From assembly GCA_001600455.1 (NCBI GenBank), contig BCKC01000012.1:434001-498000 (forward strand): DNA of 64,000 bases. Reading direction: 5' to 3'. Under the pieces are notes generated by a model. That model did no database searches, was not told the origin of the DNA, and saw nothing but the letters and a program-made list of their open reading frames with translations. This document shows positions 29,717 through 57,080 of the stretch, piece by piece. The translations under genes and the position numbers were made by a program. This stretch comes from Endocalyx cinctus (lineage: Eukaryota > Ascomycota > Sordariomycetes > Amphisphaeriales > Apiosporaceae). Position 1 is the stretch's first letter. Every line of letters starts with the position of its first letter.

Positions 29717-31754
29717 GATGATTGTCTTTGATTAAATTAAAATAAAAATCAAATGTATATGATATTATATAAATGATGAGAATTTTTAACAAAGAGAAAA
29801 TTCGAGAGTTTAGATACCTACTCCCTCCTCAACACGATGAAGATTTTAGTCGGACAAGTTTTACTATCTACACCAAACAGCCAGGCAGCCTACCTAAGGC
29901 TAATGGTTGGGTAAAGTTTAACGGCGACACATTATGTATTAAGTAAGTATTTACCTAAGTAGCGCAGTTAAAATTTATGCATAATTCAGATAAATACTCT
30001 TTAAAGGGTGCTTAGTTAATAATAACTCATTACATGAATAATTAATTGGCCCCACTATCAAAGTTTTATTATTTGAAGAAAATTTTTGAAAGCTTCTTTC
30101 TCTTTTCCTTTTCTTTTTTCTTCTTTACACATACTCGGATCTGTGCCCGATAGTCCTTTGTTTTCGCCTCGCGAATTTCAGAGTTGATCATCGCGGCAGC
30201 TTGAATCACTTATGGAACCATCAATTTTTTCTTAAAAAAATATCGTGGTGTCAGTCCTGACTCGGGTCCGTAGATTAACCAGCTTTTGGTAATGTCGAGA
30301 TCGCCGTAAAAAGCTGAGCTCGTGCATCCAGATGCCTGGAGATGTCATATTCCGTTCCTCTTTTCCAAGATCCTTATATCTATGAGGTTGGGGCTAACCA
30401 TGACCCTCTACATTATTCAATTTCGTAAATATTTTCTTTTTTGATCATGCAATTTGCTACGATTCATTGTAACAATTTCATCGAATACCTATCGACCATC
30501 TTCAAATATTCCATTGTCTTGTAGTAGGAGCTTTGTAAATCACACCTGGAATGATACTGCTGAATTAATTTCAGTTGTTTTTCAACTAGGACAATATACA
30601 TTCCTGTATTTTTCCCTCGTCGAGGAGCGAATATACCTAGGTATCTACATATACATCGTGAAATCTGTTTTGATATCAAGAGAAAATTTAATCCATATTT
30701 GGTCATCTGCTCGGCTAGTTAATTTTCCCTCGATTAACTAAGCATATGGAAATTACTGAATAAATTTGAAATCACGTAACCTGTAGGTTGCCCTACTAAG
30801 TACTTTCTTCTCTCTTTTTCTCTTTTTTTTTCGGTTGTCTACGGAGTACTGGTTATTATATTTACTATTGTTTTATTATATGATTAGTCGCCGTTGTTGT
30901 TTTCAATCCACCAGGCAGCCAGGCAGCTAGGAGAGCCAAAAAAAAAAAATTGAACCAATCACTTCCAACATGTGGAGTGACCGGGCCGATGTATGGCCGT
31001 TATCTAATCTGATAGTTCTTCGTTATTCGACCTTCGTTGGATACTCCGGAACTCCAGTGTATGGACCCAACGTTTCTCAACGTAGTAATATGATATCCTA
31101 ACTCCTGCAAGTCCGAACTGGTTCGATGTCAGATCTGGCTGAATAATCCGATGGCCATCTCCACGACTCCGGAACTATCTTGATTGTGGGTAGCCCGTTA
31201 GACGCTCCTGACGCTGTAAAAATCAAAATCAAGATTGACGTAGGTAGGCTCTTAGTGATTCGCACGACCAGCAGGATTACTTACGACCCCCGCAATTTAC
31301 CGCGGATACATCGCAGGAAAAGTAGATGGATCGATTGAGAATATGCACAAAGTGTGTTAACGCCGATGGACCCCACCGGCGAGTCGCCTCCGACTTACAC
31401 ACTATAGCAGGTATAAGTCACATAGGATCGCATTTTGACACCTCGAGTATTACCTAATGATTCGTAACTACGGAGTTGAGTGGTTATCGTGGGTTTATGA
31501 TGCCATAATCATGCAAACGTCTCCAATTCTCCAAGGAAACTGCTAGATATCTATAGACTCTCGGCGTTATGAAACTCGGTTTGCTTCCAAGTATTAATAG
31601 AAGACGATATCCCTCTCAAAATGGAGAAGAACATGAAAGAAGTACCCAAAACCAGCAACACGGTTCACACGATAGACCACAATCATATCTCTGAACCTAA
31701 ACCCACTTTCTATCTCTTCAACATTTTATCAATTTAAGTTTTGTCTCCCTCACA
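29717..31754. other. Divergent intergenic region
   Basis: About 2 kb between SNU66 (-) and the MDR reductase (+). AT-rich in its first half with CAGCCAGGCAGC-type words near 29880-29895 and 30913-30930 (related in style to the patch at 18725). A pyrimidine-rich leader precedes the MDR start. No supported gene. Confidence 0.4.
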
Positions 31755-54820: not shown

Positions 54821-56850
54821 ATGTCTCTACATCTTAGAGACCAACCTCTGTTCGCCTACGGCGCCATCGCCCTAGTTTCCTACTACATCGTCAATTACAT
54901 CGTCAAGTATATACGGATAAATGCCAAGATTCGTAGATTGGGAGGCCGACGAGCCTACATGCTTTGCAATAATCCAATTAGCGGTAAATGCTCATCTAGC
55001 TATCTTGAAACATATGACAATTATATATATATAAGATTATCTTGCTAACAGTAAGGGTTTTTTTTCTCTCTCTTTCGATTCATGTTTAAAGGCTTCTACC
55101 AAACAATTATCACGATCAGACAAGCCAACCAGAACAGGATGATGGAGCGGGTCGAATCCGTCTTCGACATGCTCCCGTCGTGGAGCCGGCACACGTACGA
55201 GGTGCAGACCAGCGCGCGGTCGCGCAACCTCGACACGCGGGAGCCGGCGCACGTCAAGGCCGTCCTGGCCGGCCAGTTCGCCGACTTCGGCAAAGGCGAG
55301 ATGCTGCACCAGGTCTTCTACCCGTTCCTCGGCGACTCCATCTTCGCGACCGACGGGAAGGCGTGGCAGCGCAGCCGGGCCCTGATCCGGCCCATGTTCA
55401 TGACCGACCGGGTCAGCGACCTGCACATCTTCGACCGCTGCGCCAGGAAGCTGATCGGCCACGTCGTCGCCGGCGAGACCGTCGATATCATGTCCCTCTT
55501 CTTCCGCATGACCATGGACGCTACCACCGACTTCCTTCTCGGGGAGAACGTCAACAGTCTAGACCAGTGAGTGGATTTGAACCCCCTTGCGTGAGCCGAT
55601 ATGATTCTAACTTCAACAAAGTCCAGACGGTGCTTTCACAACGGCCTTCGACGAAGTCTTAATTTACCAGATGCGGCTCCTAGCACTCCGGGGAATCAGG
55701 TATGTACACACCATTGATCCAATTCCCTAATAAAGTATTGTTAAAGCCTCTTTTGTACAAACCGTGCTAACGAGACGGGGAAAAAAAAAACCTATCAAAG
55801 TCCGCTCGACAAGATACTCTTTGGTAAAACGTATTTCAAACACATTCAAACTATCGAAAACTTCATGGGGCCGATCATCGACCGAGCTTTGGCGCTGCCT
55901 CCGGAGGAGCTCGAGAAGTTCACCAAGTCGGACCGAGAGTTTACCTTCCTCCACAGCCTCGTGCAGTACACGCGCGACCCGAAGGTGATCCGCGATCAGA
56001 TCCTCGCCGTGCTCCTGGCCGGCCGAGACACCACGGCGGCGACGCTGTCGTGGTGCGTGTACGAGCTCGCCAGGTATCCCGAGAAGGTCCAGCGGCTCCG
56101 CGCCGAGATCTTGGAGGCCGTGGGTCCCGACGGGACGCCGACGTACGAGACGCTGAAAGATATGAAGTATCTGCGATATACGATCCAGGTCAGTATAACT
56201 GGCAGCTAGGCGTGTGAAATACGCCTCCCGTATGCTAACACCGACGACCCCCGATGTAGGAGACTCTACGCCTTCACCCGCCGGTTCCGTTCAATATCCG
56301 AGAGGCCCTCACCGATACGACGCTTCCGGCGGTGGGAGATCAGAAACCTATCAGTATTTGCAAGGGAGACACTGTTGGATACAGTATACTGTTGATTCAA
56401 AGACGGAAGGATCTATACCCTCCAGCCTCGGACACGTTTGCCGACCCATTGGTGTTCAGTCCTGAGAGGTGGTACGTGTGGCAACCCCGTGCATGGGAAT
56501 ATCTACCCTTCAACGGCGGCCCACGAATCGTAAGTCTTCTCTTCCTGTCTTACACAACGACTACTTCGCCGGATCTACTGCTAATCTTGGTATTCCCGAT
56601 AGTGTCCCGGTCAAAACTTTGCGTTGACGGAGACGGCATATACGCGTAAGTGGTCATGCTTTTTTCTTTTCTTTTTTCTTACCATAACGAAGTTAACTGA
56701 TCAAATAAATCTTGTACAGTTGTCCGAATCTTCCAGAGGTTTGACAGGCTGGAGTATCGTGGTGATTGGCACGCGCAACGCAACAAGGCGGAAATCATCT
56801 CCCGACCAGCCTACGGTGTTCCCGTAGCGTTTCACGAGGTAGAGACATGA
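54821..56850 (+). CDS. Cytochrome P450, CYP52-like (alkane/fatty acid hydroxylase group)
   Basis: Membrane-bound monooxygenase, probably omega-hydroxylating alkanes or fatty acids (by family resemblance). Seven exons close in phase: 54821-54983, 55092-55566, 55622-55699, 55801-56188, 56260-56529, 56603-56645 and 56720-56850, giving 515 residues. The N-terminal anchor is LFAYGAIALVSYYIVNYIV. The I-helix is LLAGRDTTAATLSW (oxygen-activating AGRDTT, about 312-317). The K-helix ExxR is Glu369-Thr-Leu-Arg372 (ETLRLHPPVP), the PERF-like motif is FSPERW, and the haem loop is FNGGPRICPGQNFALTE with Cys459. The exon 7 tail (RIFQRFDRLEY ... ISRPAYGVPVAF) is typical of the group. All catalytic motifs are intact. 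The exact CYP subfamily is not assigned. Confidence 0.95.
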
Positions 56851-56910
56851 ATTGATAATATGAAGTAATGGAAAACAAAATTCAACAAAAGCAGAAAAAA
56901 GAAATTGTGT

Positions 56911-57057
56911 GGCCTCGTGGCCCAATGGGTACGATAACAATCCCAACCCACCTAATTTAGCGAATTCTAGTGACTAACAATTTACCATAGTTAAGGCGCT
57001 TGACTACGATATCCATGGTTTATCAAGAGATTCTGGGTTCGACTCCCAGCGAGGTCA
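56911..57057 (+). tRNA. tRNA-Arg(ACG) with anticodon-loop intron and 62-nt D-loop insertion
   Basis: The acceptor stem GGCCTCG (56911-56917) pairs with CGAGGTC (57050-57056), one G-T pair included, with discriminator A57057. The T arm is CTGGG-TTCGACT-CCCAG. The anticodon stem CTTGA pairs with TCAAG, and the loop reads CTACGA with anticodon ACG. A short segment (about 57010-57021) fits a canonical intron after position 37. The A box TGGCCCAATGG and B box GGTTCGACTCC are intact. The D-loop, however, is split by 62 bases (56929-56990) inserted right after G18-G19. Without them the D-loop is AATGGTTAA and the whole molecule is a standard fungal tRNA-Arg. A T-run follows as terminator. Whether it makes mature tRNA is unknown. 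Confidence 0.85.
56929..56990 (+). other. Intron-like insertion in the tRNA D-loop
   Basis: 62 bases beginning GTACGATAAC and ending TTTACCATAG. A TGACTAACA branch-like motif (CTAAC at 56974-56978) lies about 12 bases before the terminal AG. All three signals match fungal spliceosomal introns of this window in sequence, spacing and length. The boundaries are ambiguous by one base because a G flanks both sides. Confidence 0.75.
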
Positions 57058-57062
57058 TCTTA

Positions 57063-57080
57063 TTTTTTTTTTTTTTTTTT
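57063..57080 (+). terminator. RNA polymerase III terminator (T-run) of the tRNA gene
   Basis: 18 consecutive T begin six bases after the tRNA 3' end. Confidence 0.8.

Follow-up and report, generated by a model that had tools for sequence, protein, structure and literature searches.

Three tRNA genes of the ascomycete Endocalyx cinctus, one for tRNA-Arg(ACG) and two for tRNA-Lys(CTT), are interrupted in the D arm by 56 to 62 extra bases that carry the signals of an mRNA intron. Judged from the sequences, the three inserts are probably spliceosomal introns in functional tRNA genes. This reading is favoured because the exons are identical to those of uninterrupted paralogues, the strict motif of tRNA endonuclease introns does not form, no second copy of the Arg insert was found, and the same signals recur in the tRNA-Lys genes and in the U6 gene.

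The interrupted tRNA-Arg(ACG) gene

The Arg gene lies in the window, the whole stretch of 64,000 bases that was analysed (bases 434001-498000 of contig 12). Searches of the genome covered 44.76 Mb in 15 contigs. The gene and its surroundings are laid out as follows, in window positions.

56911..56928, + strand: exon 1 of tRNA-Arg(ACG), the acceptor strand and the A box TGGCCCAATGG, last base G19; identical to the paralogues
56929..56990, + strand: D-loop insert of spliceosomal type, 62 bases, at 19^20, GTACGA...TGACTAACA...CATAG; missing from both Arg paralogues
56974..56978, + strand: branch-site-like CTAAC in the insert; its A, base 56977, lies 13 bases before the insert ends
56991..57009, + strand: exon 2, the remaining D arm through base 37, with the anticodon ACG at 57006-57008
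57010..57021, + strand: ordinary tRNA intron in the anticodon loop, 12 bases long; in the paralogues it measures 11 and 12 bases
57022..57057, + strand: exon 3, the 3' side of the anticodon stem, the T arm and the acceptor; identical to the paralogues
57036..57046, + strand: B box GGTTCGACTCC, read in the sequence
57063..57080, + strand: run of 18 T, resembling a Pol III terminator, read in the sequence

The earlier note had described a tRNA-Arg(ACG) with 62 extra bases after the GG of the D-loop and a second, ordinary intron in the anticodon loop, and the sequence bears out both. ARAGORN reports no tRNA in the window as found and so misses the interrupted gene, whether introns are allowed or not. 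After the 62 bases are dropped, it reports a tRNA-Arg(ACG) of 73 bases with a 12-base anticodon-loop intron. Searching the genome with the Arg gene found two further Arg(ACG) genes, at C2:2962990-2963073 and C2:1818243-1818327. Both read AATGGTTAAGG unbroken, which is the empty site for the insert, and excision of the insert gives an exact match to them. The exons of all three Arg(ACG) genes seen are identical, while the anticodon introns of the paralogues (11 and 12 bases) differ in sequence from that of the window gene. BLAST between the three loci finds similarity that spans the tRNA and a few tens of bases beyond it at most.

Alignment to the paralogues places the insert in two registers, one base apart, and one of these gives GT...AG. 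In that register the insert reads GTACG...GACTAACA...TAG, and the last base of TGACTAACA stands 11 bases before its end, so that the GTACG start, the motif near the end and the final AG are placed as the note had claimed. The insert holds no TTTT stop for Pol III and leaves the A and B boxes undisturbed; the A box, which the note had called intact, is identical to that of the paralogues. The note had also proposed searching the insert for introner-like copies. This search, which passes over very common words, returned one match in the genome, the insert itself.

The earlier note had held that its reading would fail if other intact Arg(ACG) genes supplied all reads. Half of this holds, as two uninterrupted genes exist, and the interrupted copy therefore need not be essential.

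Interrupted tRNA-Lys(CTT) genes and the genome survey

The earlier note saw a single interrupted gene. That gene is real and not a one-off, as the genome has at least three. Among the loci fetched for reading (L numbers), L101 is a tRNA-Lys(CTT) gene on contig 6 in which 58 bases (GTTAGT...GCTAAC...TTCAG) separate base 24 from base 25, and L115 is a tRNA-Lys(CTT) gene on contig 10 that carries 56 extra bases (GTCAGT...ACTAAT...CACAG) there too, at 24^25. Both inserts lie in the D stem and read GTYAGT...CTAAY...CAG. Three Lys(CTT) genes have no D-arm insert (L004, L005 and L023, the last with a 14-base anticodon-loop intron). Exons are identical in all five Lys(CTT) genes seen, and excision of either insert gives an exact match to the uninterrupted genes. 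Across the Arg(ACG) and Lys(CTT) loci seen, the interiors of the Lys inserts, the anticodon introns and the upstream flanks differ between genes, unlike the exons, whose identity might stem from gene conversion.

Compared whole, the two Lys inserts reach a score matched by 6 of 1000 shuffles; their interiors reach one matched by 708 of 1000, which is chance level. The likeness therefore sits at the ends, with the splice signals. Either one old intron drifted while its signals and the exons held, or two introns entered at one site, and both origins would support splicing. Against the fetched loci and the window the Lys inserts gave one 12-base match apart from themselves. At their 3' side all five Lys(CTT) loci seen carry CAATTCCCGRTGCCTC and a trailer hairpin. 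Both interrupted genes retain the hairpin, and by eye L023 and L115 each have one pair changed on both sides relative to L005.

Given the loci directly, the Rfam tRNA model scored L101 at 29.6 bits and L115 at 29.2 bits, while the window Arg gene (L034) did not reach E 0.1. In L101 (1500-1520) the 3' end of the insert, GCTAACTCGGTATCTTCAG, resembles the D arm of the same tRNA, and Rfam therefore aligns the D arm there; the likeness could be a hint at the origin of the intron, or chance.

At least 71 tRNA genes were seen in the genome: 56 from the Rfam tRNA model (63 of 1473 first-look candidates scored), 12 further uninterrupted ones recognised in part by eye (L060, L064, L088, L111-L114, L124, L128, L136, L147 and L160), and the three interrupted genes. 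This count leaves out five odd tRNA-like places (L066, L143, L154, L161 and L163). All introns that ARAGORN placed in the 56 Rfam tRNAs lie in the anticodon loop, the one place that it models. Canonical B-box places numbered 138 (control 81), and the first 100 of the 138 were examined: 30 were read (L060-L089), 19 were tRNAs already seen, and 51 were screened by script, with the context read for those whose T stem formed 4 or more of its 5 pairs. Querying with 37 tRNA 3' ends, with 40 of 77 candidates scored, led to four fetched places that are uninterrupted by eye.

Pattern searches were each compared with a control. The pattern of a CTAAC branch followed by AG and a B box matched 16 places (control 12), namely the window gene, L101 and 14 places not read as tRNAs, so the case for L101 rests on its tRNA exons and not on the match count. 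Three matches, against 0, came from a TAGC A box separated from its B box by a long gap: L115, and L037 and L045 with long anticodon introns. Across the whole genome, none of the matches was read as a tRNA for the pattern with a CTGAC branch (11, control 12) or for CTAAC with AGTTC-type B boxes (10, control 24). CTAAC close to the B box gave 9 matches (control 13), of which three are ordinary tRNA-Glu genes and one is L101. A TGGC A box with a gap of 55-85 gave 4 (control 2), three of them tRNAs with long anticodon introns; this pattern cannot match the window Arg gene, whose gap is 107. Matches of these low-yield patterns (CTGAC, the CTAAC variants and TGGC) were judged on strings of 80 bases at most. 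Outside the genome, the 5' half of the tRNA-Lys followed by GTNNGT had no match in viral_contigs and one in genome_contigs, on a Planctomycetota contig where ARAGORN finds no tRNA, and this match was taken as chance.

Several other sequences came up along the way. A 154-base tRNA-like gene with GTAATT...TTTCACAG (L066, 1369-1522) was considered as a fourth case and left uncounted; it has no relative among the fetched loci or in the window. Its acceptor, T arm and T run are present, and it may be another interrupted or derived tRNA. L035 (201-350) is a tRNA that has a 77-base anticodon-loop intron and, by ARAGORN, the anticodon TCA, which would read UGA. L143 with L154, and L161 with L163, form two pairs of odd tRNA-like sequences whose T stems are good but which otherwise fit poorly. 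Nine loci (L069, L073, L077, L117, L119, L120, L146, L148 and L150) share a B-box-containing repeat, exemplified by GGTATTAGGTTCGATTCCTAATAGCGCTAAGTGG in L069, that looks like a dispersed element. In the window, 30120-30415 on the + strand matches the Rfam family Afu_309, an Aspergillus fumigatus small RNA, at 75.2 bits.

Splice signals and competing readings

All three inserts start with GT and end with AG in one of their 2-3 possible registers, and all have a branch motif, CTAAC in the Arg gene, CTAAC in L101 and CTAAT in L115, with the branch A 13, 14 and 12 bases from the end. When stretches as long as the inserts are drawn at random from the window, an initial GT, a final AG and CTRAY near the end occur together by chance 1.4-2.0 times per 10,000 (2.0 for the Arg insert). 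With 2-3 registers allowed, the rate is 4.0-5.0 per 10,000 per insert, and 4 in 10,000 for the Arg insert with its two registers. These rates bear on the idea that random or mobile DNA landed in the tRNA genes and resembles introns by accident. The repeats of 1-2 bases at the insert ends could be remnants of such an insertion, but a chance of 4 to 5 in 10,000 per insert, for three inserts, strongly disfavours it, as does the Arg insert's lack of a second copy by search, and we regard it as barely credible.

Other signals are less telling. TTTT is absent from all three inserts, and this is weak support because 74% of 60-base stretches taken at random from the window have none either. The Arg donor, GTACGA, does not fit GTRNGT at position 6. 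A 308-kb scan found this donor twice, once in the Arg insert itself, against 4 times in the reversed control; the Lys-type donors were found 3 times against 5 (GTTAGT) and once against once (GTCAGT). In the same scan GTAAGT was found 11 times against 3, but the GTRNGT class 24 times against 23. A loose ORF-guided intron scan of the window did no better than its controls, and a stricter version yielded 13 GT..GT candidates (reversed control 5), too few for a donor profile.

Self-splicing introns were rejected: they need more than the 56-62 bases present here. Another alternative is that the tRNA splicing endonuclease excises the inserts as non-canonical tRNA introns. Passages of two papers (PMC4090602, PMC3978253) describe non-canonical D-arm tRNA introns in red algae, nucleomorphs and many archaea, which resemble the present cases in their position and, at times, in the additional anticodon intron. 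In the same passages the splicing mode of the nucleomorph introns is said to be unknown, and PMC4090602 names the relaxed half motifs hBH and HBh'. There, archaeal and Cyanidioschyzon introns are tied to the bulge-helix-bulge and the tRNA endonuclease, whereas the inserts here lack the strict motif and carry spliceosomal signals. The strict motif (a 4-bp central helix, two 3-base bulges and flanking helices) did not form in any of the 8 registers of the three inserts, in a test run without a positive control. For the central helix the Arg insert pairs at best 2 of 4, and each Lys insert pairs 3 of 4 in one register, followed by 0 of 3 outer pairs. Excision by the endonuclease would give no reason for GT, CTAAY and AG to occur in every one of the inserts, and we consider it quite improbable. 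The tRNAscan-SE 2.0 paper (PMC8450103), in its passage on non-canonical introns, presents the search for them as one for archaeal tRNAs, and this would account for fungal cases having gone unseen.

The alternative that deserves most weight accepts the inserts as spliceosomal introns but has them removed only from occasional Pol II read-through, with the Pol III product a dead or decayed precursor and the loci becoming pseudogenes. Both tRNAs also have uninterrupted paralogues, so the interrupted copies could be unused. However, no decay of exons or promoter boxes was found in the three interrupted genes, whose exons, A box and B box are those of the paralogues, although the Lys interiors, if they share one origin, are now alike only at chance level. 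Each of the three genes is followed by a T run. The Arg gene also lies between reading frames: the window's ORF list has no sense ORF of at least 60 aa across it, and one antisense ORF of 81 aa (56701-56946) overlaps its first part. We think this account unlikely. The earlier note had set processing by a spliceosome or an odd endonuclease beside a gene killed by its insertion; exon identity and the signals in the Lys and U6 genes point to the spliceosome, and the endonuclease and the killed gene appear to lose ground, the one on the strict motif and the other on the undecayed exons.

U6 and the proposed route of processing

A precedent for spliceosomal introns in such genes is found in the same genome. 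Its U6 snRNA gene (L090, about 1445-1610) was the one U6 match, with 48 of 2990 candidates scored, and the Rfam match (1501-1610; contig 1, 2248938-2249047) begins within an intron of the mRNA type. With boundaries set by eye, this is a 63-base GTAAGT...TTCTAACAT...ACAG between ACGAT and ACAGAGAAG, with a CTAAC branch whose A is 14 bases from the end, a CAG end and a B-box-like GTTCGATTC inside. We take this U6 to be transcribed by Pol III. Introns of the mRNA type in fungal U6 snRNA genes have reportedly been described by Tani and Ohshima in 1989 and by Canzler, Stadler and Hertel in 2016. Like the inserts here, these are GT-branch-AG introns inside a small structured Pol III RNA gene. Here, in contrast, the host is a tRNA with the B box in its exon, whereas the U6 intron of Endocalyx cinctus holds GTTCGATTC. 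Pol III transcripts have no m7G cap, so recruitment of the spliceosome to a pre-tRNA rests on the U6 precedent.

The rRNA genes of ascomycetes also carry spliceosomal introns, which are likewise mRNA-type introns in non-mRNA genes, but in a Pol I transcript and not in a tRNA. In a passage of a 2017 paper (PMC5832005), U3 and U6 are said to be the only two small structured RNAs in which an intron is known to be common. The fungal U3 snoRNA introns described there resemble the present ones as spliceosomal introns in a structured non-coding RNA, and differ in that the host here is a tRNA, outside the pair that this passage names.

The window also places the organism near fungi in which introns may be spreading. 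The closest proteins to its COQ2-like protein, encoded in one open frame, come from Hypoxylon, Daldinia, Xylaria and the like; these three genera are Xylariales. Of the top 40 hits, the majority share 71-79% identity across 83-99% of the query; one reaches 84% across 83%. One Hypoxylon strain (Hypoxylaceae) has 36 near-identical twin introns that its authors discuss as propagating (PMC9024468), which suggests that intron gain is active near the lineage of Endocalyx cinctus.

The route that we infer, from transcription through spliceosomal removal and the order of steps to the use of the product, would run as follows. One copy of a multi-copy tRNA-Arg gene would have gained a 62-base spliceosomal (mRNA-type) intron. 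Pol III would start at the intact A and B boxes, pass the TTTT-free insert and stop at the T run. The spliceosome would take out the D-loop intron and the tRNA endonuclease the anticodon intron, and the product would be the same tRNA-Arg(ACG) as from the two other genes. The two tRNA-Lys(CTT) genes would follow the same route from another D-arm site.

Teaching keeps tRNA introns and mRNA introns apart, each kind with enzymes of its own, and to our knowledge it has not been described that the mRNA-editing machinery also has to edit some tRNAs. No report of a nuclear tRNA gene with a spliceosomal intron was recognised in the open-licence literature, and a paper elsewhere could exist. With at least three tRNA genes interrupted in the D arm, the mRNA-splicing machinery may also process some tRNAs. 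We lean, with less assurance than for the introns themselves, towards the spliceosome being a regular tRNA-processing enzyme in this fungal lineage. Spliceosomal introns would then sit directly after the A box in Pol III pre-tRNAs of at least two specificities, one transcript would need two unrelated splicing machineries, and tRNA genes would gain such introns and be passed over, or filed as pseudogenes, by tRNA finders. If true, Pol III tRNA transcripts can enter the spliceosome, intron gains can be seen with the empty site still visible in paralogues of the same genome, and fungal tRNA annotation that is blind to D-arm introns misses working genes. Splicing of an uncapped, non-Pol II transcript would become directly testable on a very short substrate.
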